Below, in pieces: positions 16,467 through 55,575 of a stretch of 64,000 bases of DNA. Numbering within the stretch: position 1 is the stretch's first letter; every line of letters starts with the position of its first letter. The stretch is from a virus: the IMG/VR virus record IMGVR_UViG_3300027902_000006, positions 1-64,000 of that record; one strand, 5' to 3'. The position numbers and the translations under genes were made by a program. A model generated the notes under the pieces. The model was not told the origin of the DNA. It was given only the letters and a program-made list of their open reading frames with translations, and searched no databases.

Positions 16467-16910
16467 ATGACTATTATGGACTATCGCACTCAGCTTGCGG
16501 ATGCTAAAGCCTTGACGGGTGCTGTCTCCGCAACTATTACTGACTTTACTGTGGATTTGGCCGCGGTCAATCCCAATGTTGGTCGTGGCGAACCTATCTT
16601 CGTCCACGCTAAGATCGGTACTGCCGTGGCTAGTACCAAACCTCTTACTGCTACTCTGTCTCTTTACTTGCAGGATTCTCCTTCGTCTACTGCGGCCAGT
16701 TTTGGCAATTTGCTGAACCTGAATCTCTTAGGGGCGGCGAGCATGACTGTTAGTAAGTTGACCGTCGGAAAACTTGTCTATAGTGGGGTTATTCCCACTA
16801 AGTGTAAGCGGTACGTGCGTATTAAGGCTACTATTGCTGGTACTCCAACAACTGGTGGTACTTTGGACGCGTGGTTGGATATCGCTCCACTTGCAACTAG
16901 AATGGAATAA
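16467..16910 (+). CDS. capsid-associated beta protein (decoration-like)
   Basis: This 147-residue Ala/Thr-rich beta protein directly follows the major capsid gene and ends at a strong terminator. The text (TLSLYLQDSPSSTAASFGNL, then VGKLVYSGVIPTKCKRYVRI) is like the small Bbp16-type proteins found beside GP5-like capsid proteins. It probably decorates or stabilises the shell. The exact family is inferred, not proven. Confidence 0.7.
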   Translation: MTIMDYRTQLADAKALTGAVSATITDFTVDLAAVNPNVGRGEPIFVHAKIGTAVASTKPLTATLSLYLQDSPSSTAASFGNLLNLNLLGAASMTVSKLTVGKLVYSGVIPTKCKRYVRIKATIAGTPTTGGTLDAWLDIAPLATRME

Positions 16911-16921
16911 TAACCCATGCG

Positions 16922-16953
16922 CCGGGGGGCGGTTGCCGCTCCCCGGTTTTTTT
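16922..16953 (+). terminator. Rho-independent terminator after the capsid genes
   Basis: An 11-bp stem (16922-16932 with 16936-16946, one G-T wobble), a TTG loop and a run of seven T make a textbook intrinsic terminator 12 bases after the decoration gene. It would isolate abundant capsid transcripts from the genes that follow. Confidence 0.9.
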
Positions 16954-16982
16954 ATATATAATATTATTGGGGGTATGGGATT

Positions 16983-17243
16983 ATGAAAGACGAATCCATA
17001 AAAGCCAGTCCAAAGCTTACTTTGAATCAGGTTACAGCTTTTGAATCATCCAAAATGGAGGAACCAACTCTACCAGCAGAAGTTAAGGGACCCAGTAAAG
17101 TTAAGGAACTCACTTGGCCTAGGAAGTACACTTGTATAGTTATGTGTTATGTAGCTAGCAAAGCACAAGTTTTCAATGTTGGAGACGTAGCGGAATTTGC
17201 AGAAGGGGAATATATCCCAAGTCATTTCTCACCACTAGATTAG
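16983..17243 (+). CDS. hypothetical 86-residue protein
   Basis: This small protein has a charged N-terminus (Lys/Pro/Glu-rich) and a C-terminal half TCIVMCYVASKAQVFNVGDVA resembling small phage proteins near the head-completion genes. A GGGGGT/GGGA-rich leader precedes it. No family is assigned with confidence. Confidence 0.6.
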   Translation: MKDESIKASPKLTLNQVTAFESSKMEEPTLPAEVKGPSKVKELTWPRKYTCIVMCYVASKAQVFNVGDVAEFAEGEYIPSHFSPLD

Positions 17244-17256
17244 TGGGAGGATCACT

Positions 17257-17535
17257 ATGGCTAATGATACTAACGGGGATAAATGGACAATGCGACCCGT
17301 GGTCGCTTCTCTTCTTGTAGTTGGAACATTTGCCCTTTTTTGGTTTATTCAACAGGGTCAAGTAGGTAAAGAAGTTATCACTCTTATTGTCGGAGCTTTG
17401 ATAGCGAACTTGACCTCTGTCGTTTCTTTCTATTTTGGATCGTCTGCGGGTAGTGCTAAGAAGGACGATACTGTTATGCTTGCCCTTCAGAAAACTGGCC
17501 AACCCACGTGTCCACCAGAATCAAAAGAACAATAA
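17257..17535 (+). CDS. two-helix membrane protein, holin-like
   Basis: This 92-residue protein has two hydrophobic helices (VVASLLVVGTFALFWFI and VITLIVGALIANLTSVVSFY). It ends in FGSSAGSAKKD plus a polar tail, a combination seen in class II holins and phage membrane proteins of unknown role. GGGAGGATC precedes the ATG. No endolysin is next to it; the nearest lysozyme-like gene is on the other strand at 60.2 kb. Holin is therefore a plausible, not certain, call. Confidence 0.6.
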   Translation: MANDTNGDKWTMRPVVASLLVVGTFALFWFIQQGQVGKEVITLIVGALIANLTSVVSFYFGSSAGSAKKDDTVMLALQKTGQPTCPPESKEQ

Positions 17536-17592
17536 AAATATGATAAGATTATCTAATAGTGAACTAAACTCCTAAAAAAATTACGAGGGATC

Positions 17593-18786
17593 ATGAAGAT
17601 CAGTGCGTGCATGATGGTACGGAACGAGGCACATAATATGTCTCAAGTTCTAGAGTCCTTACAGGACGTCGTCGACGAGATCATAGTTGTCGATACAGGA
17701 TCAACAGATAAGACCATAGAAATTGCTGAACTCTATGGCGCTAAAGTCTATCACCACCCGTGGGAAAACAACTTCTCTACACATAGAAATCAATCTATTA
17801 ATTACGCTACTGGTGACTGGATTATAATTATCGACGCTGACGAGCGTCTTGTCAAAACCCCCCATTATACTCGGAGTATGTTTCATAAATGGCTGGAGAG
17901 TGAAATCGAAGCTCCGGGTTATACATCCATAGCTGTATTCATCAACGACTTTCAAGACGGCCAGTTGGCCATGAGTTGTAACTCAGCTAGGATGTTTAAA
18001 GCTGGGACTATCCATTATGTAAATTGTATCCACAATCAGCCAATCTTTGCAGGAGCGTGTGTTCTCAATCCTTACTTCTCGCTCTCACATTTTGGTTACG
18101 ACCTAACGCCAGCACAGATGAGAAAGAAGTTTTTTAGGACTAAAGGACTTCTCTACAAAGAGATGCGTGATAATCCCGAGAACTTCGATGTACCATTCTA
18201 CTTCTGTCAGCTTTACGGTCATCATAACTACCATGAGAAAAGCAGATACTGGGGTGAGAAGTATCTGGCTATGAGGGACCAGATACCTACTGAAAGTTTT
18301 AATTCTACAATCTACTTTACATTGATCCGTAATTATCAAGAATCGGGAGACTTGGAAAAAGCGTTAGACTTGATGAGAGAAGCCATGAAAGATCGTCCGA
18401 ATGACCCAGACCTAGCTTCTGCAATGTCGGACCATGGAGCCATGGTGAGCAATAACTATCTTATGGCGGAAGGTGCACGACGTTATATTACTGGATATGA
18501 GGAAATGACTAACAACCCTGCTCTTAAGGGTGGACAGTTTTATTTTAGTATGTCTGAAGACGTTCTTGCTCTTAACCTATATCGTCTATGTGTAGCTTCT
18601 CTTGAGGAAGGAATGCGTTGTTGGGAAGCTATCAAGCCCAAAGTTAGACAGATGAATTCTGGACTGCGAGATGAACTTAAAGCTAATCTCAATATAGTAG
18701 GTCTACCCCATCTGTTACAAGAAGTTCCCGAACTCGGGGGTATTGCACACAAGACTGTTATAGATATTCGAGAGGTGGAGTTATGA
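17593..18786 (+). CDS. family 2 glycosyltransferase with TPR-like tail
   Basis: This 397-residue protein has a GT-A domain opening with ISACMMVRNEAHNMSQVLES and VVDEIIVVDTGSTDKT, and the metal-binding DAD at 81-83 (IIIIDADERL). The C-terminal half contains a TPR-like repeat (NYQESGDLEKALDLMREAMK). This layout matches bacterial glycosyltransferases of lipopolysaccharide core or surface-glycan synthesis. It opens the glycan island that follows the capsid genes and overlaps the next start by four bases. Confidence 0.9.
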   Translation: MKISACMMVRNEAHNMSQVLESLQDVVDEIIVVDTGSTDKTIEIAELYGAKVYHHPWENNFSTHRNQSINYATGDWIIIIDADERLVKTPHYTRSMFHKWLESEIEAPGYTSIAVFINDFQDGQLAMSCNSARMFKAGTIHYVNCIHNQPIFAGACVLNPYFSLSHFGYDLTPAQMRKKFFRTKGLLYKEMRDNPENFDVPFYFCQLYGHHNYHEKSRYWGEKYLAMRDQIPTESFNSTIYFTLIRNYQESGDLEKALDLMREAMKDRPNDPDLASAMSDHGAMVSNNYLMAEGARRYITGYEEMTNNPALKGGQFYFSMSEDVLALNLYRLCVASLEEGMRCWEAIKPKVRQMNSGLRDELKANLNIVGLPHLLQEVPELGGIAHKTVIDIREVEL

Positions 18787-18995
18787 GTTGTGGAGAAGAA
18801 CAAGAAAAGAATTTTTTTATAGTCGACTTTGAGAATGACGCCGGTTTTCTTGGCTGGTTTGGAATGTCCAAGGAACTCTACGACGAATCAGAACACGAAG
18901 AAGTTAGCTATATGATCATGAGAGTGATAGACGCTTGGCTTAAGAGACGCTCATTCGTTCATAACAATGTAGAAATGTTTAAGACGTTATGTTAA
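18783..18995 (+). CDS. hypothetical 70-residue acidic protein
   Basis: This small acidic protein (FFIVDFENDAGFLGWFGMSK and following) is coupled to the glycosyltransferase (ATGA overlap) and overlaps the next gene by seven bases. It has no recognised family. Coupling on both sides suggests it works with the sugar enzymes or is a translational linker. Confidence 0.55.
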   Translation: MSCGEEQEKNFFIVDFENDAGFLGWFGMSKELYDESEHEEVSYMIMRVIDAWLKRRSFVHNNVEMFKTLC

Positions 18996-19837
18996 AGTTT
19001 GCTATAACTGGGGTGGCAGGATATGTAGCTCCGCGTCACTTAAGAGCAATTAAGGATTGTGGGGGTACGGTAGTCGCTGCCATCGACCCCTTCGATTCGG
19101 TAGGGATTTTAGACTCTTACAATAAGGACTGTTTCTTTACTAAGGATTGGAAAGAGTTCTGTTCTTATTGTTCGTTTGAACAACCAGATTATTTTGTAAT
19201 CTGTTCTCCGAATGTGTATCATTTTGAACAGTGTCTGACTGGACTAAGACTTAAGGCAAATGTTATTTGCGAAAAACCTGTAGTACTGACGCTCACTGAT
19301 ATTAAGAGATTGCAGGATTGTGAGGAGGAGACTGGTACGAAAGTTAATACAATCCTTCAGGTTAGACTGAAGCCAGAACTTCAAGCACTTAAGGATAGAG
19401 TTACCAACGGACATAAAGTTTTCCTACGCTACTACACTCCTAGAGGTAAGTGGTACCACATAACTTGGAAGGCACAGACTAGGTGTTCGGGTGGGTTGGC
19501 TACGAATATCGGGGTTCATATGTTCGATACTCTCCTTTGGATTTTTGGAGAGAACTATAAGAAAGTTACGCTGATCGAAAAGAACGATGAACGTATAGTT
19601 GGGTCGTTTACTACTGATAAAGCTCTCGTAGAGTTCGATTTATCTATCTCTCCTAATCACGAGGTCACTCGAACTCTCATGGTTGACGATGAACTGGTAG
19701 ACTTTACAACTAATTTTACTAACTTACATTCTGAGTCTTATCGGCATATCATCGAGGGAAATGGATTCGGTCTAGATATCGCCAAACCGAGTGTGGGATT
19801 ATGCGAGAAGATTCGTCACCTGTCCTCAGCTACATAG
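18989..19837 (+). CDS. WlbA/WbpB-like UDP-sugar 3-dehydrogenase (Gfo/Idh/MocA)
   Basis: This 282-residue NAD-dependent oxidoreductase begins with FAITGVAGYVAPRHLRAI, a feature of the WlbA/WbpB branch that oxidises C3 of UDP-GlcNAcA. The catalytic EKPVVL motif and the C-terminal-domain segment GGLATNIGVHMFDTLLWIFG are present. Together with the WlbB-like acetyltransferase at 20133 it supplies two of the steps to UDP-GlcNAc(3NAc)A. No 3-aminotransferase (WlbC/WbpE) is visible in the window. It may come from the host or from genome outside the window. Confidence 0.85.
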   Translation: MLKFAITGVAGYVAPRHLRAIKDCGGTVVAAIDPFDSVGILDSYNKDCFFTKDWKEFCSYCSFEQPDYFVICSPNVYHFEQCLTGLRLKANVICEKPVVLTLTDIKRLQDCEEETGTKVNTILQVRLKPELQALKDRVTNGHKVFLRYYTPRGKWYHITWKAQTRCSGGLATNIGVHMFDTLLWIFGENYKKVTLIEKNDERIVGSFTTDKALVEFDLSISPNHEVTRTLMVDDELVDFTTNFTNLHSESYRHIIEGNGFGLDIAKPSVGLCEKIRHLSSAT

Positions 19838-19872
19838 ATATTAAACAGAGCCACTTAGGTGATTTTGTCCAG

Positions 19873-20127
19873 ATGTCACTTTTTCCGATCACTGATACTA
19901 CAGGAGTGGTATTTCAGTGCGAGAAAGGTTGTCTTACTCCTACTCCTTATAATACACCACTCAGATGGTGGATTCCTTTTGGTAACTTGTTAAAGAGGTT
20001 TATCTTCTGTCCTGAGTGTAATACGAGCCACGTAGTTATGGTTGGCTTATACCGGGAATTTTCCAAAGAAAAACAAACTTGGATATGGGACTACGATGGT
20101 AGTCTACAACTAAAGAACCGGAGCTAA
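19873..20127 (+). CDS. small zinc-ribbon-like protein
   Basis: This 84-residue protein has CEKGC and CPEC pairs that could form a zinc ribbon, with an aromatic C-terminus. I start at the ATG at 19873 behind AGGTGA. The frame opens at 19801 inside the dehydrogenase, which seems less likely. It sits between the two sugar enzymes. Function is unknown. Confidence 0.55.
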
Positions 20128-20132
20128 TTTTT

Positions 20133-20657
20133 ATGGGTCAAGTATTTATTCACAGAACGTCAGATGTCGAAGCTGGTTGCAGTATTGGAGATGGGACAAA
20201 AATTTGGCACTTCTGTCATGTCATGGACGGAGCCGTAATCGGTGAGAATTGTGTTTTGGGTCAGAACGTTTTCATTGCAGCCAATACTACGATTGGTAAC
20301 AACGTGCGTATCCAGAACAATGTCAGTATCTATGATGGAGTAGAACTAGAAGACGATGTCTTTATTGGACCGTCTGTAGTTTTTACTAACGTCAAACGTC
20401 CTCGGGCATATAAACGCGGACGTTTTGAAAAGACAGTAGTGAAGAAAGGGGCGGCTATCGGAGCTAACGCAACTATTGTCTGCGGTGTCACCATTGGCGA
20501 AAATGCTTTTATAGGAGCCGGATCGGTCGTTACAAAAGACGTTCCAGCTAATATGATTGCATGGGGTGTTCCTGCCAAAATTCAGAATTACGCATGGATT
20601 AAACGAGACCTAAGTAGTAGTACTAAATTGATTCGTGAAGAACTTCATGAACGCTAG
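20133..20657 (+). CDS. WlbB/WbpD-like hexapeptide N-acetyltransferase
   Basis: This 174-residue left-handed beta-helix acyltransferase opens with [20 protein letters not shown] and [23 protein letters not shown]. It carries the [30 protein letters not shown] region typical of WlbB/WbpD, which acetylates the 3-amino group of UDP-GlcNAc3NA. About ten I/V-G-x-x hexapeptide turns are visible. Pairing with the WlbA-like enzyme strongly supports a role in making a 2,3-diacetamido uronic acid for a surface or virion glycan. Confidence 0.9.
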
Positions 20658-21920: not shown

Positions 21921-22703
21921 TTGAAACTATCTGTGGTAATCCCTAGTTGGAAAGATCCTTATCTGATTAATACTATAGACTCTTTTCTTTCCAATTCTGA
22001 GTTGGGCGATCAGTTAGAGGTCATAGCAGTCTTTGATGGTTATTGGCCTACATTTAAACTTAGGATAGACCCGAGAGTTCGTTATGTTCATTTGGGGAAG
22101 AATCGCGGGATGCGAGACGCTATCAATGCAGGTGTCTCAGTAGCTCGCGGTGAGTTTATATGTCGTTCAGATGAACATGTGATGGTCGCGCAGGGCTTCG
22201 ATCGTATTATGACTGAGAGCTGTCAACCAAACTGGATCATGACAGCTACTCGCTATTTTCTAAATCCGAAAACTTGGACTGTGATGGAAGATCAACCCCC
22301 TGTGGGTTATGAGAAACTTGTTATTCAAGGGGGTATTAAGTTCGCAGGGCAAAGATGGAAGAGTCGTGATAGTAGGAGAAAGGATATACCCATAGATGCT
22401 ACTATGGCGATGCAGGGAAGCGTCTGGCTGATGCCGAGAGCATGGTGGGAGACAGTCATAGGGAAGTTGCAAACAGAGGGGTACGGGCCGTTATACCAAG
22501 ACTCACACGAGGTTGTCTTCAAAACTTGGCAGGCAGGTGGGCATCTCATGTTAAATAAGAATACTTGGTTTGCTCACAAGCATCGCTCCTTCTCTAGAAC
22601 ACATAATTATGGAACAGCTGAAGCCACACCTGGCTGGTTGTATTCCTTGAATACTTGGAGAAAGTATTACGAGGAAACTGTACGGCCTCAATGGGGGATC
22701 TAG
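21921..22703 (+). CDS. family 2 glycosyltransferase (TTG start)
   Basis: This 260-residue GT-A protein opens with LSVVIPSWKDPYLINTIDSF and contains the acidic metal region FICRSDEHVMVAQGF, with the acceptor-loop segment MQGSVWLMPRAWWE and the late NKNTWFAHKHRS. It is a paralogue of the N-terminal part of the fusion protein at 28539 (same order: GFD, MQGS, NTWYAH). The start is TTG with AAGAGGGTAAGGG upstream. It probably adds a sugar to the same glycan as its neighbours. Confidence 0.85.
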   Translation: MKLSVVIPSWKDPYLINTIDSFLSNSELGDQLEVIAVFDGYWPTFKLRIDPRVRYVHLGKNRGMRDAINAGVSVARGEFICRSDEHVMVAQGFDRIMTESCQPNWIMTATRYFLNPKTWTVMEDQPPVGYEKLVIQGGIKFAGQRWKSRDSRRKDIPIDATMAMQGSVWLMPRAWWETVIGKLQTEGYGPLYQDSHEVVFKTWQAGGHLMLNKNTWFAHKHRSFSRTHNYGTAEATPGWLYSLNTWRKYYEETVRPQWGI

Positions 22704-22752
22704 ATGTATGTCTCCCATCCTTCCTTTAACCAACCTCTAGTTCGATTCCTCG

Positions 22753-23526
22753 ATGAAACTTCAGTTTGAAAGCACGACTGCGTGTAACGCTATGTGTGTT
22801 TTCTGTCCTCGTTACGACATGACTCGTCCTCGTGGAGAAATGAGTGATGAACTATTCCATAAGATAATCAAAGATGGAAAGGCGATGAACAATTCGTTCT
22901 TCGTTCCCTTTCTTAATGGAGAACCTTTTGTATTTCCTAGAATTTGGGATTGGTTGGACTATATGCGGGCTGAGAAAGTCCGCGTCCACATTTACACAAA
23001 TGCTGAACTGGTTGACGTTGATAGACTGGTCAAATATCACAATATCAGTTGTATTTGCTGTAGTATCAATGCGGCAACGAAAGAGACTTATGACAAGGTT
23101 GTCCGAGGTCCTGAGTACGAAAGAGTAGTGAGTAATGTGAGGAAACTCATTGAGAAGGCGCATTGTAAGGTCTTCGCTTCAATGGTCCTTGTTGACGATA
23201 ATTATCATGAGATAAGACGATTCAAACAACTCTGGGGAAAGAATCACATTTTCGGGGAGTTTAAGAACTGGGGTGGGGCTAGGCATCAGAAGTTGGAGAG
23301 AACGGGGAAACGTAAGGTCTGTTGGGCTTTGAACAATACAATGAGTATTCTCTGGGATGGCAGAGTCGTCGCCTGCTGCATGGATTATGACGGTAAATTA
23401 ATTCTAGGAGATGTTAATACTCAGACTCTCACTGAGATTTGGCACCAGTCGTATAGGATTAGAAAACGTAATAGAGGGCTTGACTTCAGTATGGAACCCT
23501 GTCTGAATTGTAACGCTAATGTATAA
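22753..23526 (+). CDS. SPASM-type radical SAM enzyme
   Basis: This 257-residue protein has CxxxCxxC at Cys11, Cys15 and Cys18 (TACNAMCVFC) almost at the N-terminus, then PFLNGEPFVF. The C-terminal Cys-rich tail (KVCWALNN, RVVACCMDYD, PCLNCNAN) matches a SPASM domain binding an auxiliary cluster. SPASM enzymes modify peptides or sugars, often by oxidation or thioether chemistry. It lies between glycosyltransferases, so a sugar or glycopeptide substrate is likely, but no precursor peptide is evident. Confidence 0.85.
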   Translation: MKLQFESTTACNAMCVFCPRYDMTRPRGEMSDELFHKIIKDGKAMNNSFFVPFLNGEPFVFPRIWDWLDYMRAEKVRVHIYTNAELVDVDRLVKYHNISCICCSINAATKETYDKVVRGPEYERVVSNVRKLIEKAHCKVFASMVLVDDNYHEIRRFKQLWGKNHIFGEFKNWGGARHQKLERTGKRKVCWALNNTMSILWDGRVVACCMDYDGKLILGDVNTQTLTEIWHQSYRIRKRNRGLDFSMEPCLNCNANV

Positions 23527-23537
23527 GGGAGACGAAG

Positions 23538-23849
23538 ATGGAGTACCAACCCTATTCTGAAGACCGAGAAGTTGTAAAGGCCGACTTGATGTATAGAGCA
23601 CATCGACATGTTTGTATTTGTGAGAAGCTTAGACAGATTTACGACGTAGTTTATGAGTTGCCGGAGAGTGAACTAAAGCTCAGTCTTACGGAACTTGTAG
23701 TTGATGCTTTCGTCATGGGCAAGAAACTCGCGCAGAGGTTATCCTATATGGTAAATACACATACGGATACTACAGGGAATAAGGGAGCCAACTTGATAGT
23801 AACTCCGAACCTCTGGGAAACTAGAAAAAAAAGAAAAGTCAGAAGATGA
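23538..23849 (+). CDS. hypothetical 103-residue protein
   Basis: This mostly helical protein (YRAHRHVCICEKLRQIYDVV, then LKLSLTELVVDAFVMGKKL) has a basic C-terminus. GGGAGACG precedes the ATG. It overlaps the next gene by four bases. No family is recognised. Confidence 0.55.
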   Translation: MEYQPYSEDREVVKADLMYRAHRHVCICEKLRQIYDVVYELPESELKLSLTELVVDAFVMGKKLAQRLSYMVNTHTDTTGNKGANLIVTPNLWETRKKRKVRR

Positions 23850-24655
23850 AGAATCTTATGGTTTATGTCCATCCTAGAAAGGATTTTTGCCAAGAGAGTC
23901 GTATACTAATTAAGATTCAAATAGACAATAGTTTAGAATTGGGTTGGGGGCTAGAGGATATTATTTTAGTAACGAACTTCCATTATGAATACAGAGGAGT
24001 AAGAGCGTTCCTTATTGGTGACGAAAATTATTGCGATTTTTATCCTATGGCTACTAAGGAGAATGTCATAATTGATCTCATCAAAGGAGGAGTTTTACAA
24101 TCAAATACTTTATACTGGTTTCACGATCTCGATTGTTACCAGTGTGAGGTTCTGACAGAAGAAGAGATTAACCTTGGTGAGCACTACTTGGCACTATCTG
24201 ATTACGGTAGGATGGTCCAATGGAATACAGGTAGTATGTTTTTCACCACGAAAGTTTTAGATATTTTTGAGGTATTGAGAGCGGTAGAATATGCTCACAA
24301 ACTTCCCGAGGAACACGCTCTGTGCCTACTGACTGAAGATTATTCGGACGCAGTTGTGACTAAATATCTGATTAATAACAGACACTCCTTCGACCTGTCT
24401 AGACTCCCGAGGCTTAAAGAGTTTAATAGGATTAAACGACTTAACATTTCCTACAATTTTACTTTTATAAATGTTCGATCTAACTACACACAAGCAGTGA
24501 AACCTATAAGGGTCATACACTTTCACCCATTTGGGAGTTGGCGTCGATCTGGGATTCCAAGATTGTTGGACTTCTATAAAGGTAAAAATAAGATCAATCG
24601 AGTCTTAATGCCTCAACGATTAATCCAAATCTTTGATCGACATGGGATTGTATGA
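23846..24655 (+). CDS. putative GT-A-like transferase, first of a pair
   Basis: This 269-residue protein shares most of its layout with the next gene: MVYVHPRKDF, QIDNSLELGW, DIILVTNFHYEYRGV, GDENYC. A DLD triplet in LYWFHDLDCYQ resembles the DxD metal site of GT-A glycosyltransferases, and a late HFHPFG motif may be catalytic. I infer a glycosyltransferase-like enzyme; the family is not named with certainty. Start and stop overlap neighbours by four bases. Confidence 0.6.
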   Translation: MKNLMVYVHPRKDFCQESRILIKIQIDNSLELGWGLEDIILVTNFHYEYRGVRAFLIGDENYCDFYPMATKENVIIDLIKGGVLQSNTLYWFHDLDCYQCEVLTEEEINLGEHYLALSDYGRMVQWNTGSMFFTTKVLDIFEVLRAVEYAHKLPEEHALCLLTEDYSDAVVTKYLINNRHSFDLSRLPRLKEFNRIKRLNISYNFTFINVRSNYTQAVKPIRVIHFHPFGSWRRSGIPRLLDFYKGKNKINRVLMPQRLIQIFDRHGIV

Positions 24656-25371
24656 AACAAGTGTTAACTTACATAAGTCCAGATCGGGAATTTAATGACG
24701 AACATAGAATGGCAGCTAGAATCCAGATTGACAATAGTTTAAGTATAGGTTGGCACAAAGAGGACATCTTAATAGTAACTAATTTCAATTATGAGTATAA
24801 CGGAGTCAAATCTATCGTCATTGGAGATGACAACTATTGCTCGATTCACTGGCCCGCTACTAAGGTCTATGTACTCGTTTATCTTATGCAGAAGGGTCTA
24901 ATTGGAGACGATCTATACTGGTATCATGATTTTGATTGTTTCCAATTCGTATCGTTTAGGGAGGACGAACCAGACTTGGGGACGGCTGATTTAGGTTTAA
25001 CTAACTATAGTCGGATGCCTAGACTCTGTTCTGCCAGTATGTTCTTCAAGAAGACCGCCAGAGACATTTTTGAACAACTAAAAAAGGAGGTAGACCAAAC
25101 AGGAAAAGACGAAGAGATGGGACTAGCGAGGATGATAAACCGAGACAAGAAATTGAGAATTCGTGTTAAACATTTAAACATCACATACGCTTTTCACAAA
25201 TTTAATCTACGTTCTTGTATTAATATCGTAGATAAACCGATCAGGGCAGCTCATTTTCATTTAACCCCTGATAAGTATGACTTCTATGTCAGAGGAAATA
25301 ACAAACTGAACCTACCTCTGATACCTGAAAGATTAGTTAAAATCTTTCATCAACATGGGTTCGATAAATGA
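24652..25371 (+). CDS. putative GT-A-like transferase, second of a pair
   Basis: This 239-residue tandem paralogue of the preceding gene has the same segments QIDNSLSIGW, DILIVTNFNYEYNGV, GDDNYC and the acidic triplet DFD in LYWYHDFDCFQ, and AAHFH near the end. It is shorter in the middle. Sequence divergence suggests an old duplication with different specificity. ATGA overlap joins it to the first copy. Confidence 0.6.
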   Translation: MKQVLTYISPDREFNDEHRMAARIQIDNSLSIGWHKEDILIVTNFNYEYNGVKSIVIGDDNYCSIHWPATKVYVLVYLMQKGLIGDDLYWYHDFDCFQFVSFREDEPDLGTADLGLTNYSRMPRLCSASMFFKKTARDIFEQLKKEVDQTGKDEEMGLARMINRDKKLRIRVKHLNITYAFHKFNLRSCINIVDKPIRAAHFHLTPDKYDFYVRGNNKLNLPLIPERLVKIFHQHGFDK

Positions 25372-25383
25372 AAGGAGAGATAT

Positions 25384-25581
25384 ATGTTTTGTCCATATTG
25401 TGATGCCGACGAAGAGTATCCCCCAAGTCCTTGTACTTCTTTCGCTGTTTTTAAATGTGGTACAGAGTATCGTGACGGAGAGTACTATCAGAGTGACTTT
25501 TGTGAGGGCAAAGCCGAGTTTAATGAATTGGTTGAAAAAGTACAAAAATTGGAGGCTAAGTTATGCAGGATCGGACAATAG
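25384..25581 (+). CDS. small zinc-binding-like protein
   Basis: This 65-residue protein begins CPYCDADEEYPP and has further Cys (FKCGTEY) and a short C-terminal coiled coil. It resembles short phage proteins with one zinc knuckle. AAAGGAGAG precedes the ATG. It overlaps the next gene by 19 bases. Confidence 0.55.
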   Translation: MFCPYCDADEEYPPSPCTSFAVFKCGTEYRDGEYYQSDFCEGKAEFNELVEKVQKLEAKLCRIGQ

Positions 25582-26207
25582 TTTACTACACTGCCAACGC
25601 GGAGAATCCGTTGTTCGAAGAACGGATTAGAGAAGACCTAAAAAAGAAGGCGGGGGACATTCCAATCGTTAGTGTATCTAGGAAGCCGATTGACTTTGGA
25701 ACCAATATCTGTGTAGGAGAGGTCCCCATCAGTTATACAAGTGAGTGGAAGCAGCTACTTCTTGGTTTAAAGGAAGCCAAGACAAGACTTTGTATTGCCG
25801 CAGAAGCAGATTGTCTCTATCCTCCTGAATACTTCACGATGACTCCAGAGGAAGACGATATGATGTACAACTACAATCATATCTGGATTATTTGGAGACG
25901 TCATAGAGGAGCGTGGCGTAAGTATGGATACTGTGAAGGGGCACAGATGTGCGGTCGGGAATATTGGATCGAGAGACTTGAGCCTCTACTTCCTAAAGAG
26001 TGGGAGCCCTATACGAGACTAGAAGAGAATGCTTTGGTCAACAAAATCTTTCCTGATAGAAAGGAGTATACAGGTAGACCAGCGATCTCGTTTAAGACTG
26101 GTGATGGGGTCAGTTGTAGGACTACTTTTAGTAGGAAGAGTAGAACAAACGAACTAGAATATTGGGGTGGTGTAAAACAACTAAAGGAGATATATTTTGC
26201 ATCTTAA
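25563..26207 (+). CDS. putative glycosyltransferase-like protein (family B copy 1)
   Basis: This 214-residue protein is a paralogue of 27802. Shared blocks are IVSVSRKPIDFG, the acidic EAD in CIAAEADCLYPPEYF, and MTPEEDDMMYNYNHIW. The acidic triplet in the centre suggests a GT-A-like fold. The family name is uncertain. The stop lies inside the next gene, so translation is coupled. Confidence 0.55.
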   Translation: MQDRTIVYYTANAENPLFEERIREDLKKKAGDIPIVSVSRKPIDFGTNICVGEVPISYTSEWKQLLLGLKEAKTRLCIAAEADCLYPPEYFTMTPEEDDMMYNYNHIWIIWRRHRGAWRKYGYCEGAQMCGREYWIERLEPLLPKEWEPYTRLEENALVNKIFPDRKEYTGRPAISFKTGDGVSCRTTFSRKSRTNELEYWGGVKQLKEIYFAS

Positions 26208-26721
26208 GTATAACGCACACATTGGGGGCGGTTCTCATCTACCTATTGTAATGAGATTGATGGCTATGACAGAAGGTCCGGTTCTTGAATTGGGTATGGG
26301 TCTTTTTTCAACTCCATATCTTCACTGGGCTTGTTACGACTCGCAAAGACCCCTCGTATCTTGTGAGAATAAGAAGCCATTTTTAGACATGTTTGTTTTT
26401 AACGACAAAAGAGAAGTAGGAAATGATTATACCTTTCATGAAATCGTCTTCGTAGAGAACAGTGATTGGGATAAGATTGATGTTACTGATAGACACTGGA
26501 GTATTGTTCTGATCGACCATAATCCAGGTCCGCGAAGGCGTGAAGAAATGAAGCGAGTAGCCAATAACGCAGATTATGTCGTAGTTCACGATACCGATGA
26601 GAAGAACGATTGGTATTACAAGTATGCTGAGTACTTTCCACTTTTCCAAAATCGGTATGACACAGAGATCTATCCGAGAACGACTGTACTTTCTAACTTC
26701 AGGGATTTATCTATCCTATGA
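26197..26721 (+). CDS. methyltransferase-fold protein, first of a pair (TTG start)
   Basis: This 174-residue protein has a SAM-loop-like motif PVLELGMGLFSTPYLHW and the later strands VLIDHNPGPRRREEM and DYVVVHDTDEK. The next gene is a tandem copy. The TTG start has AAAGGAGAT upstream. A class I methyltransferase fold is likely; catalysis and substrate are not shown. Confidence 0.6.
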   Translation: MHLKYNAHIGGGSHLPIVMRLMAMTEGPVLELGMGLFSTPYLHWACYDSQRPLVSCENKKPFLDMFVFNDKREVGNDYTFHEIVFVENSDWDKIDVTDRHWSIVLIDHNPGPRRREEMKRVANNADYVVVHDTDEKNDWYYKYAEYFPLFQNRYDTEIYPRTTVLSNFRDLSIL

Positions 26722-27215
26722 ATATCAGTGGAGATATAGGATTCGGTAGTCATCTACCTATCTTAATCAAGATAGTCGGGATGACTACCGGTCCTATCTT
26801 AGAGCTTGGAATGGGAATGTACTCTACTCCGTTCTTACATTGGGCGTGCTTTAACGCTAAACGAAAACTTGTCTCTCTTGACTCTGATTATGAATGTTAC
26901 ACAATCAATCGTAGTTATGGACGTAGTGACTATCACGAGGTGCGCTTTGTCCAGAATTGGGATGAAGTCGACTTAGCTGGATTCTGGGATGTAGTTCTCA
27001 TTGACCACGAAAGAGATAGGCGTATCTACGAAATTCAGAAAGTGGTTAATTCGGCTAACTATATCATCGTACACGATAGCGAGGGACGAAGGGACAAGTA
27101 CTACAAATATTCCCAAATCTACCCACTTTTCAAATACAGATATGACTTTGCTAAGATAACTCCGTTTACTGTAGTCTTATCTAATTTTAAGGACCTGTCC
27201 GATCTATGCGATTAA
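26718..27215 (+). CDS. methyltransferase-fold protein, second of a pair
   Basis: This 165-residue tandem paralogue has PILELGMGMYSTPFLHW, VVLIDHERDRRIYEI and YIIVHDSEGRRDK, matching the first copy block for block. ATGA coupling to the first copy and a 10-base overlap with the following methyltransferase are visible. Same fold inference and same uncertainty as its partner. Confidence 0.6.
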   Translation: MNISGDIGFGSHLPILIKIVGMTTGPILELGMGMYSTPFLHWACFNAKRKLVSLDSDYECYTINRSYGRSDYHEVRFVQNWDEVDLAGFWDVVLIDHERDRRIYEIQKVVNSANYIIVHDSEGRRDKYYKYSQIYPLFKYRYDFAKITPFTVVLSNFKDLSDLCD

Positions 27216-27826
27216 TCGAGGGTATTGAATATACAGGCACTCCCTTTGAGATTCCCGATTGTGGAAGAGACGACCTCCCAGAATTTTTCAAGGAGATGGG
27301 GTATACTATTGGAGTGGAAGTTGGAGTCCTTCGTGGAGAATTTACAGAGAAGCTTTGTAAACCAGGACTGAAGGTTTACGGAGTTGATCCCTACGAAGGT
27401 TATAGAAACTATAGACGCGATTCTCGTGAGGAGCCTTACGAAGTGCAGTATAAGATGGCACTGGATCGTTTAGCTCCTTATGACTGTACGATTATTCGGA
27501 AACTCTCAGCGGACGCAGCAATGGATTTTAAGGACGAGAGTCTCGACTTTGTCTATATAGATGGAAACCACACTATTCCATATGTCGTCTCAGATATATA
27601 CGAGTGGAATAGAAGGATCAGAGTTGGTGGAGTTATCTCGGGTCATGATTATGGTTTGAACTCGAAGAACCCATACAGTTTCCAAGCTTGTCACGTTGTT
27701 CATGCAGTAAAGTTAATGACGGGTATTTTAGGAGTTAAGAATTGGTATCTATTAGGGGAGTACCGTCCTGAGGTGGGTGATAAACGTGATAAGTGGAGGT
27801 CATGGATGTGGATCAAGAAACATTAG
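27206..27826 (+). CDS. class I SAM methyltransferase, Methyltransf_24 type
   Basis: This 206-residue protein has GVEVGVLRGEFTEKL as the SAM loop and the FVYIDGNHTIPYVVSDIYEW ... GGVISGHDYG pair typical of Methyltransf_24 sugar or small-molecule methyltransferases. It is closer to that family than its two neighbours. It overlaps the next gene by 25 bases. Confidence 0.75.
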   Translation: MRLIEGIEYTGTPFEIPDCGRDDLPEFFKEMGYTIGVEVGVLRGEFTEKLCKPGLKVYGVDPYEGYRNYRRDSREEPYEVQYKMALDRLAPYDCTIIRKLSADAAMDFKDESLDFVYIDGNHTIPYVVSDIYEWNRRIRVGGVISGHDYGLNSKNPYSFQACHVVHAVKLMTGILGVKNWYLLGEYRPEVGDKRDKWRSWMWIKKH

Positions 27827-28542
27827 GGTGTATATACTATACAGACAATAGGATTGACGGTAATCGGTACGACAATATCTTCAAACTTACTCAGAAGTAT
27901 ATCTCTGCTAGTGGACTTCCTATAGTCAGTTGTTCTCTAAAACCGATTGATTTCGGAGATACTCGTATCGTCCTCGAAGGACGTGAGAGAAGTTATCCTA
28001 CTATGGTCCTTCAGATCTTAACAGCGTTAGAGGCCGGTACGACTAAGTATGTCTTCTTCACAGAGCACGATGTTCTCTATCATCCTTGTCATTTCGATTT
28101 TACTCCACCTACGGACGATCTCTATTATTATAATGTCAATAACTGGCGATGGCTATACTTACAGGACTATCTAATAACGTATAGCGATTTGACTTCTCTA
28201 TCAAGTCTGTGTTGTAATAGAGAGTTGGCGATTCGACATTACAAATTCAGACTTGATCATATCAAGGAAAACAAATTTGATGAGATAAGAAGTCGAGAAC
28301 CTAGATGGGCTAGGCGATTTGGATACGAACCGGGAACTAAGAGTCGTAGACGTGGTGGATTAACTGATGAGGAACATGTCAAGCGTCGTTCGATGCTTCC
28401 AAATATTGATATAAGACACAGGTGTACATTCTCAAGGCCAAAAGTAACTCTAGAGGAATTCATTCATAAGCCGAGTGATTTTGTTCAAGTTGGACTAGAC
28501 GATATACCCGGCTGGAACTTACGGGAACTTTTTCAGTTATGA
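27802..28542 (+). CDS. putative glycosyltransferase-like protein (family B copy 2)
   Basis: This 246-residue paralogue of 25563 has IVSCSLKPIDFG, the acidic EHD in FFTEHDVLYHPCHF, and PPTDDLYYYNVNNW. I prefer the ATG at 27802 behind GGAGG, although that spacing is short; GTG at 27793 is the alternative. It ends with ATGA coupling to the fused glycosyltransferase. Fold and role are inferred. Confidence 0.55.
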   Translation: MDVDQETLGCIYYTDNRIDGNRYDNIFKLTQKYISASGLPIVSCSLKPIDFGDTRIVLEGRERSYPTMVLQILTALEAGTTKYVFFTEHDVLYHPCHFDFTPPTDDLYYYNVNNWRWLYLQDYLITYSDLTSLSSLCCNRELAIRHYKFRLDHIKENKFDEIRSREPRWARRFGYEPGTKSRRRGGLTDEEHVKRRSMLPNIDIRHRCTFSRPKVTLEEFIHKPSDFVQVGLDDIPGWNLRELFQL

Positions 28543-30209
28543 GCACACTCAGTATAATTATTCCCTCCCGCAACGAAATGTTTCTAGCTAGAACAATTCA
28601 AGATATTCTAGAAAACATTGAAGCTGATACGGAGATCATTGCCACTCTAGATGGGGCGTGGGCCAGACCGCCCGTTCCCCAACATGATAGAGTCAATATT
28701 ATTTATGTACCTGAGGCTATCGGACAGAGAGCAGCTACAAATATAGCAGCTAAGTTAGCTCAGGGTAAGTATGTAATGAAAGTAGATGCCCATTGTTCCT
28801 TTGAGAAGGGCTTCGACCGAAAGATGATTGAGGGCTTTAAAGAAGTTGGAGACGATGTTACGATGGTTCCCATCATGCGTAATCTCTGGGCATTTTCGTG
28901 GAAATGTTACCTCTGCGGTTGGACTAAATATCAAGGTCCGCGACCTAAAGTCTGTGAGCAATGCGGAAAATCTGGAAAAGTTCGGATGAAGATGATGTGG
29001 ATTGGAAAACGTAATCCTCAGAGTATCAGCTATTGTTTTGATTCTGTTCCACATTTTCAATACTTCAACGCCTATAAAGTCACCGATGCTTTTAAAGAAC
29101 AACGCAAAACGAACTTCACTGAAACAATGTCTCTCCAAGGTTCTTGTTTTATGTCTACACTCGAGAAGTATTTAGAGCTTAATCTATGCGACGAGAGTCT
29201 CGGTAATTGGGGCAATCAGGGTATTGAAGTAGCCTTGAAGACGCGATTGTCAGGCGGAAGGGTTCTTGTCAACCACAATACTTGGTATGCTCATATGTTT
29301 AGAACGCAGGGCGGTGATTTTGGTTTTCCCTACGATCTATCAGGGAGAGGAGTTCAACAGACTAAAAACCGAGTCAAAGCGTTGTTCTTCGGGAACAGTT
29401 GGGACAAACAGATCTATCCTTTGTCTAAAGTGATTGAACAGTTCTGGCCGATTCCGGGTTGGTCCGAAGAAGCATTTAAATCACTGAAAAAAGACGAGAT
29501 GCAAGTTAAGCGGCCCGGAGTTTATTCTATTAAGAATAAAGACAACACTAAAGCCTATATAGGATCTTCGATCAATATAGCTCAAAGATTCGGAGAGCAC
29601 CTACGAGAACTCCGTAGAAATGAACATGGAAACGAATATTTACAACATGCTTGGAATAAGTATGGGGAGGATTACTTCTCGTTTAATATCGAATACTTCT
29701 GTTCTCAAGATACGTTATTAATAAAAGAACAAGAAATTTTGGACCTCTTCACTTCTGACTTTGGGTGGAGGAATATATATAACCTTAATCCTACGGCTAG
29801 TCTATCTGGTAGAAATCATACAGAAGAGACAAAGGCTAAGATAGGGGAGAAGAGTAAAGGAAGAAGAACATTTTTAGGTAAGAAACATTCTTCTGAATCT
29901 ATCGAGAAGATCCGTTTGTCTAAATTAGGAAAAGATCCTTGGAACAAGGGTATCCAACACTCTGAAACTACCAAGCGTAAGATTAGTGAGTCTAAATTAA
30001 AGAACCCTATTGAGGTGTGGAACAAAGGGAAAAAGGGACTTTATTGTGCCTCCGAGGAGACACGAAAAAAACTGAGCGACTCCCTAAAAGGACGTATTCC
30101 TTGGAATAAAGGAAAACACCATACTGATGAAACTAAACAGAAAATAAAAGAAGCCGCGAAGAAACATCATAGACATAAAGACGAGAAGGGTCGTTTTGTT
30201 AAAAAATAA
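28539..30209 (+). CDS. family 2 glycosyltransferase fused to a GIY-YIG homing endonuclease
   Basis: Residues 1-320 of this 556-residue protein are a GT2 domain (LSIIIPSRNEMFLARTI, YVMKVDAHCSFEKGFD). It is interrupted by a zinc knuckle (CYLCGW...CEQCGK) and ends QIYPLSKVIEQFWPIPGW. From residue 321 (an in-frame ATG at 29499) it becomes a GIY-YIG nuclease (RPGVYSIKNK, KAYIGSSINIAQRFGEH) with repeated NUMOD3-type modules (GRNHTEETKAKI, KGKHHTDETKQKI). The endonuclease has thus entered the 3' end of the transferase gene without breaking the frame. Downstream the remnant of a second transferase C-terminus remains (30202-30294). The endonuclease may also be made separately from 29499. Confidence 0.9.
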   Translation: MSTLSIIIPSRNEMFLARTIQDILENIEADTEIIATLDGAWARPPVPQHDRVNIIYVPEAIGQRAATNIAAKLAQGKYVMKVDAHCSFEKGFDRKMIEGFKEVGDDVTMVPIMRNLWAFSWKCYLCGWTKYQGPRPKVCEQCGKSGKVRMKMMWIGKRNPQSISYCFDSVPHFQYFNAYKVTDAFKEQRKTNFTETMSLQGSCFMSTLEKYLELNLCDESLGNWGNQGIEVALKTRLSGGRVLVNHNTWYAHMFRTQGGDFGFPYDLSGRGVQQTKNRVKALFFGNSWDKQIYPLSKVIEQFWPIPGWSEEAFKSLKKDEMQVKRPGVYSIKNKDNTKAYIGSSINIAQRFGEHLRELRRNEHGNEYLQHAWNKYGEDYFSFNIEYFCSQDTLLIKEQEILDLFTSDFGWRNIYNLNPTASLSGRNHTEETKAKIGEKSKGRRTFLGKKHSSESIEKIRLSKLGKDPWNKGIQHSETTKRKISESKLKNPIEVWNKGKKGLYCASEETRKKLSDSLKGRIPWNKGKHHTDETKQKIKEAAKKHHRHKDEKGRFVKK

Positions 30210-30300: not shown

Positions 30301-32793
30301 ATGGCAACTTCATACGTTAGTGTCAGCCACGGTAACATAGGGTCTGCGACGAGGCCACAAACGCTAGTGGTCAACACACCCGCTTCTCTCCAAGCAGGAG
30401 ACGTCATTGTTGCCTATATCGGTGCTTGGGGTGCTGCTGGTGCTCCAACTATTAGTACTCCTTCTGGTTGGACTTTAGTAGATTCTGCTGCTCCTACATC
30501 AAGTTATTTGGGTAAGTGGTTTTGGCACGCTTTCTCTGTGGGGGAAACTTCATATTCGTGGACTATTTCTGCCACATCAGGGAATGTAGCAGCTTATGGT
30601 TGTTTAGCAGGTTTTCGTGGTTGTAGTGTAACAAATCCCATTGACCATAAGAATAAAAATAGCGGTACTAGTGGTTCTTCTATTACCGTAACTGGTTTCA
30701 CTGACACGGATGCCAACTCAATCGCCCTTCTTTTTGCAGCATGTGAATACTCATCGGCACGGACTTTCAGTTCAGAAACTTTAAATTCTGTCGCTATGAC
30801 GGAAAGAGACGATGCTTCGGGTTGTACAACCTATGTTCATTCAGTCTCTGTTTCGACTTTACAGTTATCTTCTACAACTACCGGTAATGCTGCTGCTACA
30901 ATCAGTAGTAGTACTAATAATGCATGGGTGGGCGTTCTTATCACACTGCTTCCGGCAGGAAGCTCTGCTAGTCCGAGTCTATCTCCATCTTTAAGTCCGA
31001 GTCTTAGTCCTTCAATTTCTCCGTCGTTATCGCCATCTGTAGCGGGTAGTTTCAGTCCTAGTCTGAGTCCGTCTATATCACCCTCAATATCTCCTAGTCT
31101 AAGTCCAAGCATATCTCCGTCCTATTCACCGTCTATCAGTCCTAGCGTGTCTCCTAGTTCGAGTCTCTCTCCGAGTCTGAGCCCATCCTTAAGTCCTAGT
31201 CTATCCCCATCATTCAGTCCTAGCTTAAGTCCTAGCTTAAGTCCTAGCTTATCTCCGAGCAGGTCTCCTAGTGTATCACCTTCGGCTTCCCTCAGTCCTT
31301 CATTATCTCCGAGTCTATCTCCTAGTATATCTCCGTCTCTATCTCCATCTTTGTCCCCAAGTAGATCACCGAGTCTATCTCCGAGTCTATCTCCATCTAT
31401 TTCACCGAGTGTATCACCGTCTGCGTCTATTAGTCCCTCTATATCACCTAGCTTAAGTCCAAGTAGGTCTCCTAGTCTCAGCCCAAGCCTATCTCCGTCA
31501 ATATCTCCTTCCTTGTCTCCGAGTTACAGTCCTTCTCTATCGCCCTCCCTTGTTACTAGTTTTAGTCCGTCTCTAAGTCCAAGTATATCGCCGAGTATTT
31601 CTCCGTCCGTTAGTCCATCGGCTTCGATTAGTCCTTCGCTATCTCCTAGTCTCAGCCCTAGTTATAGTCCAAGTATTAGCCCTAGCTTAAGCCCAAGTAT
31701 TAGCCCAAGCATCAGTCCGTCTGCTTCACCTTCGGCTTCTCTAAGTCCTAGTCTTAGTCCTAGCATAAGTCCTAGCATAAGCCCAAGCCTTAGTCCCTCT
31801 CTATCACCTAGTAGGAGCCCATCAATATCTCCGTCGGTATCACCGTCGGCGTCCATTAGTCCAAGTCTTAGTCCTAGTCTGAGTCCTTCTATATCACCTT
31901 CTCTGAGTCCTAGTCTCAGTCCATCACTCAGCCCGTCACTGAGCCCAAGTTTAAGTCCGAGTATATCTCCTTCAGTTAGTCCGAGTGCAAGTATATCACC
32001 ATCGCTAAGTCCAAGCTTAAGTCCTAGCTTATCTCCGAGCAGGTCTCCTAGTGTATCGCCAAGTGTAAGTCCTAGTGCCTCTATAAGTCCTAGCTTAAGT
32101 CCATCTTTATCTCCGTCTTTAAGTCCGAGTCTTAGTCCGTCTATCAGCCCGAGTAGAAGTCCGAGTCTTAGTCCGAGTCTTAGTCCGAGTATATCTCCTT
32201 CGGTTAGTCCTTCTGCGTCGATATCTCCCTCTCTGTCTCCGAGTAGATCCCCGAGTTTGTCACCCTCGATCAGTCCGAGCGTATCTCCTAGCGTATCCCC
32301 GTCCGCCTCGATCTCTCCAAGTCTGAGTCCGAGTATCTCTCCGTCTATAAGTCCGAGCCTCAGTCCCTCCATCAGTCCGAGTAGAAGCCCGTCTCTGTCT
32401 CCGAGTGTCTCACCGTCTCTCTCACCTTCTATTATAACTAGTTTTAGTCCATCGCTATCTCCGTCTTTAAGTCCAAGTCTGAGTCCATCCAGATCACCTA
32501 GTAGAAGTCCGAGTCTTAGTCCTAGCTATAGCCCATCGCTTAGTCCTAGTTTAAGTGGGAGTATATCTCCATCCGTATCTCCTAGTGCAAGTATCAGTCC
32601 GAGTATATCACCGAGTTACTCCCCGAGTTACAGTCCTTCCGTCTCTCCAAGCGGATCACCCTCGGCGTCGATATCTCCATCTGTGTCACCATCTCCATCT
32701 CCTCCACCTATTATGGGAAGACGTACTACGATTCTACGCTTGGGTGGACTGAGTTCAAGATACCGCTTAGTCACCCGTGATCCAAGCGAGTAA
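30301..32793 (+). CDS. virion-type protein with long S-x-S-P repeat
   Basis: This is an 830-residue protein. Residues 1-220 form a beta-sandwich-like domain (SATRPQTLVVNTPASLQAGD, GWTLVDSAAPTSSYLGKW) of a kind found in phage surface proteins. Residues about 222-800 are roughly 145 tetrapeptides S-[L/I/V/A/R/Y]-S-P. The end is a basic tail GRRTTILRLGG. The repeats probably form an extended or disordered stalk, possibly a glycosylation platform given the many Ser residues and neighbouring glycosyltransferases. That link is inference. There is no signal peptide. Minus-strand open frames here are by-products of the repeat. Confidence 0.75.
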   Translation: MATSYVSVSHGNIGSATRPQTLVVNTPASLQAGDVIVAYIGAWGAAGAPTISTPSGWTLVDSAAPTSSYLGKWFWHAFSVGETSYSWTISATSGNVAAYGCLAGFRGCSVTNPIDHKNKNSGTSGSSITVTGFTDTDANSIALLFAACEYSSARTFSSETLNSVAMTERDDASGCTTYVHSVSVSTLQLSSTTTGNAAATISSSTNNAWVGVLITLLPAGSSASPSLSPSLSPSLSPSISPSLSPSVAGSFSPSLSPSISPSISPSLSPSISPSYSPSISPSVSPSSSLSPSLSPSLSPSLSPSFSPSLSPSLSPSLSPSRSPSVSPSASLSPSLSPSLSPSISPSLSPSLSPSRSPSLSPSLSPSISPSVSPSASISPSISPSLSPSRSPSLSPSLSPSISPSLSPSYSPSLSPSLVTSFSPSLSPSISPSISPSVSPSASISPSLSPSLSPSYSPSISPSLSPSISPSISPSASPSASLSPSLSPSISPSISPSLSPSLSPSRSPSISPSVSPSASISPSLSPSLSPSISPSLSPSLSPSLSPSLSPSLSPSISPSVSPSASISPSLSPSLSPSLSPSRSPSVSPSVSPSASISPSLSPSLSPSLSPSLSPSISPSRSPSLSPSLSPSISPSVSPSASISPSLSPSRSPSLSPSISPSVSPSVSPSASISPSLSPSISPSISPSLSPSISPSRSPSLSPSVSPSLSPSIITSFSPSLSPSLSPSLSPSRSPSRSPSLSPSYSPSLSPSLSGSISPSVSPSASISPSISPSYSPSYSPSVSPSGSPSASISPSVSPSPSPPPIMGRRTTILRLGGLSSRYRLVTRDPSE
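30964..32703 (+). repeat. 12-base coding repeat (S-x-S-P units)
   Basis: About 145 consecutive 12-base units encode Ser-x-Ser-Pro. Serine codons switch freely between AGT/AGC and TCN families and proline between CCT/CCG/CCA/CCC, so adjacent units differ strongly at DNA level while the peptide pattern holds. The periodic insertion SVSPSAS recurs at higher order, suggesting duplication of longer blocks. Confidence 0.9.
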
Positions 32794-44767: not shown

Positions 44768-44776
44768 GGAGTAAGG

Positions 44777-55562: not shown

Positions 55563-55575
55563 CTTTCCTCCTTTT

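Follow-up and report, generated by a model that had tools for sequence, protein, structure and literature searches.

What is a run of sugar-type enzyme genes doing in the middle of a phage virion operon? The question is raised by the first 64 kb (64,000 nucleotides, here called the window) of the 140,478-bp IMG/VR record IMGVR_UViG_3300027902_000006. The source virus is a long-tailed phage (siphovirus), because its gene block extends from a terminase to a lambda-J-type fibre; within that block, on one strand and between the major capsid gene at 15477 and the head-tail adaptor gene at 36412, lies a cargo island. An original prediction, made from the sequence alone, had described positions 21,921 to 30,209 as a set of duplicated glycan-like enzymes inside the virion operon, and both the placement of the island and its open reading frames (ORFs) are borne out here. 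We propose, at a probability of about 0.6, that the island is a virion protein-glycosylation cassette, which would carry out the cytosolic, stepwise O-glycosylation and methylation of a neighbouring Ser-Pro stalk protein.

Gene content of the cassette

The genes of the cassette, and the two features that follow it, are:

21921..22703, plus strand: GTa, a family 2 glycosyltransferase (GT2) that opens the cassette (PF00535, E=1.5e-10)
22753..23526, plus strand: radical SAM/SPASM enzyme, 257 amino acids, an optional module (PF04055, E=1.3e-15; PF13186, E=2.2e-14)
23538..23849, plus strand: small ORF, 103 amino acids, no Pfam family
23846..24655, plus strand: B1, predicted GT-A-fold glycosyltransferase, paralogue of B2 (39% identity; family model)
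24652..25371, plus strand: B2, predicted GT-A-fold glycosyltransferase, GT8/GT6-like (invariant D93/D95 in HDFD)
25384..25581, plus strand: small ORF, 65 amino acids (from the ORF list)
25563..26207, plus strand: C1, predicted GT-A-fold glycosyltransferase, paralogue of C2 (family model and Foldseek)
26197..26721, plus strand: M1, small Rossmann/methyltransferase-like enzyme, putative activity (motif GPVLELGxGxxST...DHxPG...VVHD)
26718..27215, plus strand: M2, paralogue of M1 (47% identity)
27206..27826, plus strand: MT, Methyltransf_24 methyltransferase (PF13578, E=6.8e-13)
27802..28542, plus strand: C2, predicted GT-A-fold glycosyltransferase (model and Foldseek)
28539..29498, plus strand: GTb, GT2 that closes the cassette (PF00535, E=6.9e-13)
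29499..30209, plus strand: GIY-YIG and NUMOD3 homing endonuclease, in frame with GTb (PF01541, E=3.8e-8; PF07460, E=1.4e-23)
30301..32793, plus strand: SPS-repeat protein, 830 amino acids, with an N-terminal domain of about 230 residues and 134 S-P-S-x units

The two GT2 proteins (21921, 28539), the radical SAM enzyme with its SPASM domain (22753) and the Methyltransf_24 protein (27206) had been recognised from the start, and all exceed their Pfam cut-offs: PF00535 gives 41.7 bits for GTa and 49.3 bits for GTb against a cut-off of 23.3, and the radical SAM and SPASM domains score 58.5 and 53.9 bits against 29.5 and 21.5, respectively. GTb also contains a conserved internal insert with four cysteines, zinc-ribbon-like in the family alignment. 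The start of C2 is more probably the ATG at 27802, as previously placed, than the GTG at 27793, because the starts of its homologues fit the former. Coupling between the genes is looser than had been claimed: 4-base overlaps, said to join almost all of them, are found at 4 of the 11 junctions (23849/23846, 24655/24652, 26721/26718 and 28542/28539), the others being overlaps of 10-34 bases or gaps of 11-49 bases. No membrane segment was seen in any cassette protein, the maximum 19-residue hydropathy being below 1.6 in every one, and the cassette therefore offers no flippase, polymerase or lipid-linked route.

The radical SAM/SPASM enzyme has the CxxxCxxC motif, its cluster cysteines C11, C15 and C18 are invariant, and its C-terminal, cofactor-binding part matches BtrN (E=5e-11). 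Peptide maturation is common among SPASM radical SAM enzymes, and weak NCBIfam matches to maturases were obtained, which would suit a pathway for a ribosomally synthesised and post-translationally modified peptide, or for some other small molecule, built around this enzyme. Such a pathway is nevertheless a very improbable account of the locus: the radical SAM gene is present in just 11 of 75 viral loci, whereas the glycosyltransferases are constant; the cofactor-domain match is to BtrN, which acts on a sugar-like cyclitol; and no precursor-export genes were found.

Enzyme folds and the age of the paralogue pairs

Structures for the B and C families were predicted with AlphaFold2 from family alignments (predicted local distance difference test, pLDDT, 91 and 88, respectively) and then compared by Foldseek with known structures. 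The B model matched LgtC (best E=2e-7), a xylosyltransferase and BoGT6a; the C model, for which a viral library was also searched, matched an alpha-1,3-galactosyltransferase (best E=1.6e-5) and a capsid-glycosylation enzyme of the chlorella virus PBCV-1. With moderate template-modelling scores (about 0.5-0.6 for B and about 0.35-0.5 for C), the models support the GT-A fold class, for which the original prediction had proposed to check 23846 and 25563, and point to no specific donor or acceptor. Against Pfam, PHROG and PDB sequence profiles neither family gave a significant match, and neither could be placed in a named family such as GT8 or GT6. Altogether, the cassette is predicted to encode six glycosyltransferases (GTa, GTb, B1, B2, C1 and C2). 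When the GT2 profiles were compared with solved structures, GTb matched polypeptide GalNAc-transferases (E=3e-6), and GTa matched GalT1 as well as polypeptide GalNAc-transferases. The polypeptide GalNAc-transferases are the initiators of mucin O-glycans. The M pair may be a small Rossmann/methyltransferase-type family, for which the ELGxGxxST motif is suggestive and the best PDB profile match, to MW1564, is weak (E=0.02). Thus, of the duplicated enzymes described as glycan-like, the B and C pairs have predicted GT-A folds, and for the M pair no likeness to glycosyltransferases was shown.

All three proposed pairs are homologous. B1 and B2 (23846/24652) share 39% identity over 268 aligned amino acids (E=7e-61), M1 and M2 (26197/26718) share 47% over 170 (E=2e-54), and C1 and C2 (25563/27793, the latter taken from its GTG start) share 37% over 99 amino acids confined to the N-terminal half (E=7e-14); GTa and GTb are likewise related to each other and make up a fourth pair (hhalign 99.95%). 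In phylogenetic trees each member of a pair lies closer to genes of other phages, or of metagenome-assembled genomes (MAGs) of the candidate phyla radiation (CPR), than to its partner in the window, which argues that the pairs are old paralogues, reshuffled, and not the products of local tandem duplication that the original prediction had taken them to be. A recent local tandem duplication is rejected by these trees. Profile comparison revealed no link between the B and C families, though both are GT-A, and no relation between the M family and MT.

A repeat protein as constant partner

The gene for the SPS-repeat protein starts 91 bases past the fused GTb-endonuclease ORF, and it is the sole SPS-repeat gene in the 140-kb record. 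We counted as an SPS ORF any that contains 8 or more SPS motifs and starts no more than 4 kb downstream of GTb, at loci with enough flank that had been collected without searching for the repeat. Of 41 such viral loci, 36 have an SPS ORF, which in about 20 cases lies no further than about 100 bp away; of 20 CPR MAG loci, 13 have one, some of these being chromosomal. In the viral loci found through GTb, duplicates included, the cassette strand carries all 99 of 99 SPS ORFs. The association also appears in the reverse direction: in a scan of IMG/VR with the DNA pattern of the repeat, cassette glycosyltransferases were present, among the matches listed, at 17 of 38 SPS loci and at 1 of 81 loci that matched the pattern but lacked an SPS ORF (Fisher P=2.6e-9). 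The forward and reverse tests are not fully independent, since some of the repeat-pattern loci share contigs with loci retrieved by GTb.

The SPS repeat is held by selection on the protein, because its codon use is mixed (all six codons for Ser, four for Pro) and the DNA repeats have diverged, mostly matching each other at 70-88%. The protein is probably a virion stalk and a putative acceptor for glycosylation; the original prediction had noted neither this neighbour nor the homing endonuclease. Its counterpart in a 70-kb relative (reversed contig, 40166-45925) has 1,919 amino acids and 303 SPS motifs, and the tail region of that phage holds another SPS-rich gene (55133-58594). A literature search on the motif SPSLSPS returned only unrelated eukaryotic papers, mostly on phosphoproteomics, and no description of the pairing of such a cassette with an SPS repeat was found in the open-access literature.

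A conserved module in different virions

Relatives of the cassette were sought in IMG/VR with B2 and C2 as queries and then with the GTb alignment; a single-sequence scan of IMG/VR with M2 yielded no relative, and neither did tblastn of M2, B1 and C1 against the INPHARED phages. The counts derive from metagenomic contigs and include some redundancy, and for gene order the loci were chosen by GTb or by B/C2, never by order itself. Of 59 non-redundant viral loci complete at either end, 58 begin with GTa and all 59 finish with GTb. Counting cassette-family genes, C2 adjoins GTb in 40 of 41 viral loci, and MT is directly ahead of C2 in 37 of 38 loci; C1, MT and C2 are frequent in viral loci, B and M rarer. 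The ordered cassette is far beyond chance, because it recurs in dozens of viral contigs. This conserved neighbourhood, to which the original prediction had looked for a check, agrees with its picture of a modular set of enzymes that builds a multi-step glycan: six predicted glycosyltransferases, one or more predicted methyltransferases and a sugar-type radical SAM enzyme keep their order in relatives, and neither did the pairs prove unrelated nor were the genes scattered singly.

The major capsid protein of the window, of GP7/Bbp17 type, is about 40% identical to that of BPP-1 and BcepC6B; its family is present in 0 of 11 related contigs (several of them fragments), and in the 70-kb relative the cassette lies amid portal, protease and Dit genes of families unlike those of the window. 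Such different heads around the cassette indicate that the module travels between virion types. This bears on the idea that the enzymes glycosylate other virion proteins, such as the major capsid or tail tube, the SPS gene being merely co-inherited. The likeness of the C2 model to the PBCV-1 enzyme, the position of the cassette within the head-tail gene block, and the capsid and tail-tube glycans of Mycobacterium phages, as far as these are related in PMC12619734, all speak in its favour. It is nonetheless unlikely, given that a cassette found with unrelated heads has no fixed capsid acceptor, and that the SPS repeat is the constant partner even at CPR chromosomal loci that have no head genes close by.

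The cassette is also a repeated target of homing endonucleases. The ORF at 28539-30209 is a GT2 fused to GIY-YIG and NUMOD3 domains, with an in-frame ATG at 29499, and the GTb of relatives terminates at the point where the endonuclease of the window starts. The segment 29499..30209 exceeds the cut-off of TIGR01453, a model for group I intron endonucleases; a group I intron carrying the endonuclease was rejected, as no intron RNA was matched by Rfam anywhere in the window and the GTb frame runs on uninterrupted. Free-standing HNH or GIY-YIG endonucleases lie between cassette genes in at least six loci, and homing may help the cassette to spread.

Cellular relatives in Patescibacteria

Relatives of GTb were identified at 41 genome loci, 36 of them under Patescibacteria/CPR names and several on phage-like or short contigs. 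In three different CPR lineages, represented by loci L129 (a 916,571-bp chromosome), L128 (744 kb) and L136 (240 kb), the cassette and an SPS protein are followed by tatC (at 16901-17635, 18306-19040 and 19737-20495, respectively). These loci are chromosomal, because the flanking genes, which include tatC, a Cache-domain gene and Mg-chelatase, are not phage genes; a prophage origin was considered for them and rejected. Neither a signal peptide nor a membrane anchor is obvious in their SPS proteins. When 380 Patescibacteria genomes were drawn evenly across the phylum, GTb was present in 5; a strict SPS pattern occurred in 2 of these and in 2 further genomes. With GTb in so few genomes, the cassette is a sporadic accessory locus and not a housekeeping one. 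In the GTb tree the viral and cellular copies stand largely apart, with several exchanges (9 changes of the viral label against a shuffled mean of 29). On gene sharing alone, Patescibacteria are the likely host of the window phage.

The presence of the same locus on CPR chromosomes might also be taken to mean that the enzymes alter a host-surface polysaccharide, in antigen conversion or superinfection exclusion, with no virion glycoprotein involved. Serotype-changing phage glycosyltransferases are known, and O-antigen sugar genes are reported from Patescibacteria phages (PMC12911398). The cassette, however, has no membrane glycosyltransferase, flippase or polymerase, it occupies a site in the virion operon, and it is tightly linked to the repeat-protein gene, all of which make this explanation quite improbable. 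It is tempting to go beyond virion glycosylation, and to imagine a single mobile "glycan-coat" module, consisting of the enzyme cassette and the SPS glycoprotein, which is common to Patescibacteria phages and their hosts and passes among cell chromosomes and virions of unrelated type, the phages displaying their hosts' glycoprotein as decoy, adhesin or mimic; this is a tentative suggestion, and on balance a doubtful one.

Proposed pathway

For virion protein glycosylation we infer the following steps, and their order. In the cytoplasm of the infected cell, GTa and GTb, with B1, B2, C1 and C2, would add a glycan stepwise onto Ser residues of the (SPSx)134 protein. The glycan would be methylated by MT, perhaps also by M1 and M2, and the BtrN-like radical SAM/SPASM enzyme may epimerise or oxidise a sugar hydroxyl. 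The glycan-coated Ser-Pro stalk would then enter the particle as a stiff, mucin-like fibre or decoration, with a presumed benefit to the phage. The enzymes are soluble, and comprise several glycosyltransferases, a methyltransferase and an optional radical SAM enzyme with a constant Ser-Pro partner; cytosolic O-glycosylation is thus the simplest reading of the locus. Several observations weigh against it. The likeness of the GT2 enzymes to GalNAc-transferases is local and generic. An SPS ORF within 4 kb downstream is missing from 5 of the 41 viral and 7 of the 20 MAG loci, and, among the matches listed, 21 of the 38 SPS loci have no cassette gene, many of these loci being short. In a family profile search the SPS protein matched no recognised virion family, and sequence is unable to reveal an acceptor.

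Genomic setting

The virion genes around the island, and three sugar-type genes ahead of the cassette, are:

6561, plus strand: terminase
8602, plus strand: portal
15477, plus strand: GP7/Bbp17-type major capsid, ahead of the cargo
16467, plus strand: Bbp16-like, before the cargo
17593..18786, plus strand: GT2 plus tetratricopeptide-repeat (TPR) protein, possible accessory (PF00535, E=2.8e-19; SunS-like, 73.9 bits, below the cut-off of 350)
18989..19837, plus strand: Gfo/Idh/MocA oxidoreductase, possible sugar-nucleotide supply (PF01408, E=9e-15)
20133..20657, plus strand: hexapeptide sugar acyltransferase, NeuD/PglB/VioB-like (PF00132; TIGR03570, 88 bits, below the cut-off of 160.8)
36412, plus strand: head-tail adaptor, after the cargo
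38557, plus strand: minor tail
40524, plus strand: tape measure
47665, plus strand: lambda-J-type central fibre

Further sugar-type genes lie distally, at window 54440-60226 and record 65149-69267, encoding an HddA-like kinase, an HddC-like nucleotidyltransferase, an epimerase, an RmlC-like protein and a transketolase split over two genes. Their matches are all below the curated NCBIfam cut-offs, and a heptose-type sugar route of the phage is possible. Amid more sugar-type genes, a radical SAM protein of the B12-binding type (BchE/HpnJ-like, below cut-off) is encoded on the minus strand at window 56674-58092. The upstream Gfo/Idh/MocA, acyltransferase and GT2-TPR genes, together with the distal heptose-, RmlC- and transketolase-like genes, could provide sugars to the cassette; no sugar is named here, since the NCBIfam matches of both groups fall below their cut-offs.

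Elsewhere, at record 98587-105107, FolE (186 amino acids) and QueC exceed their NCBIfam cut-offs and QueD- and QueE-like genes fall below them; they likely constitute a preQ0/7-deazaguanine pathway, which perhaps serves DNA modification. ThyX is found at record position 69460. These genes for nucleotide modification, and the fact that phage glycosyltransferases can act on DNA, bring hypermodification of phage DNA by the cassette enzymes into consideration. That explanation has very little probability, for the cassette is in the virion operon, distant from the FolE, Que and ThyX genes, and paired with a repeat protein; CPR chromosomes bear the same cassette; and MT is a Methyltransf_24 match.

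Three other features of the window may be recorded. Imperfect short tandem repeats of 5-47 bases, GC-rich from 2192, occupy 434-2496 at the left end of the record; a GIY-YIG (LEM-3-like) protein with a DUF2256 segment is encoded on the minus strand at 3580-4545; and a papain-family cysteine protease is encoded by the phage at 63074-63883 (PF00112, E=2.2e-14).

Comparison with known systems

Hardly any glycosylation systems dedicated to the virion proteins of phages are known. The present cassette is modular and conserved, has a likely acceptor beside it and should be easy to reconstitute; genes that were anonymous and "hypothetical" become a pathway that can be tested. The cassette is also a marker of phages linked to Patescibacteria, a huge group of ultra-small bacteria, and most viruses and cell-surface proteins of that group have yet to be characterised. 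GTb together with the SPS repeat provides a sequence handle with which to find such phages and the corresponding host loci.

Phage gtr antigen-conversion cassettes likewise contain phage glycosyltransferase genes that act on glycans, but their membrane glycosyltransferases and flippases have no counterpart in the window cassette. Groundwater phages of the same bacterial group, Patescibacteriota, are reported to carry nucleotide-sugar auxiliary metabolic genes of the galE/rml/gmd type, plus concanavalin-like lectins (PMC12911398); a text search of that paper for such a repeat protein, a methyltransferase or a radical SAM enzyme gave nothing. In PBCV-1, proteins are glycosylated in the cytoplasm by virus-encoded enzymes, and the sugars are methylated. 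Its A64R structure (PDB 2p72/2p6w) matches C2 by Foldseek, although PBCV-1 is a eukaryotic algal virus with its enzymes outside a single operon and the major capsid protein as acceptor.

In the serine-rich repeat protein (SRRP) loci of streptococci and lactobacilli, a cluster of glycosyltransferase genes beside a long Ser-rich repeat protein, such as Fap1, directs stepwise O-glycosylation of that repeat (PMC5207161). The window cassette also has several glycosyltransferase genes adjoining a long Ser-rich repeat protein, and may work like these loci. It differs from them in its setting in a phage virion operon, in having GT2 and GT-A enzymes instead of Gtf1/Gtf2-Gtf3, in the added methyltransferase and radical SAM enzymes, and in its SPSx repeat. 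No Gtf1/Gtf2 (GtfA/GtfB) initiating pair is present in the cassette, whose glycosyltransferases match GT2 or GT-A folds only; neither a signal peptide nor LPXTG is visible in the sequence or hydropathy of the SPS proteins, and the cassette has no accessory Sec genes. Because the initiating pair, signal and anchor were not seen, we do not assign the cassette to the SRRP loci.

A parallel among phages is offered by mycobacteriophages, in which, according to the citation of Freeman et al. 2023 in PMC12619734, capsid and tail-tube virion proteins are glycosylated by phage-encoded glycosyltransferases, as is proposed here for the SPS protein. In that account the glycans are on the C-termini of capsid and tail-tube proteins and few glycosyltransferases are involved, whereas in the window phage about ten enzymes form a conserved cassette, with what would be a dedicated repeat protein to receive their product.

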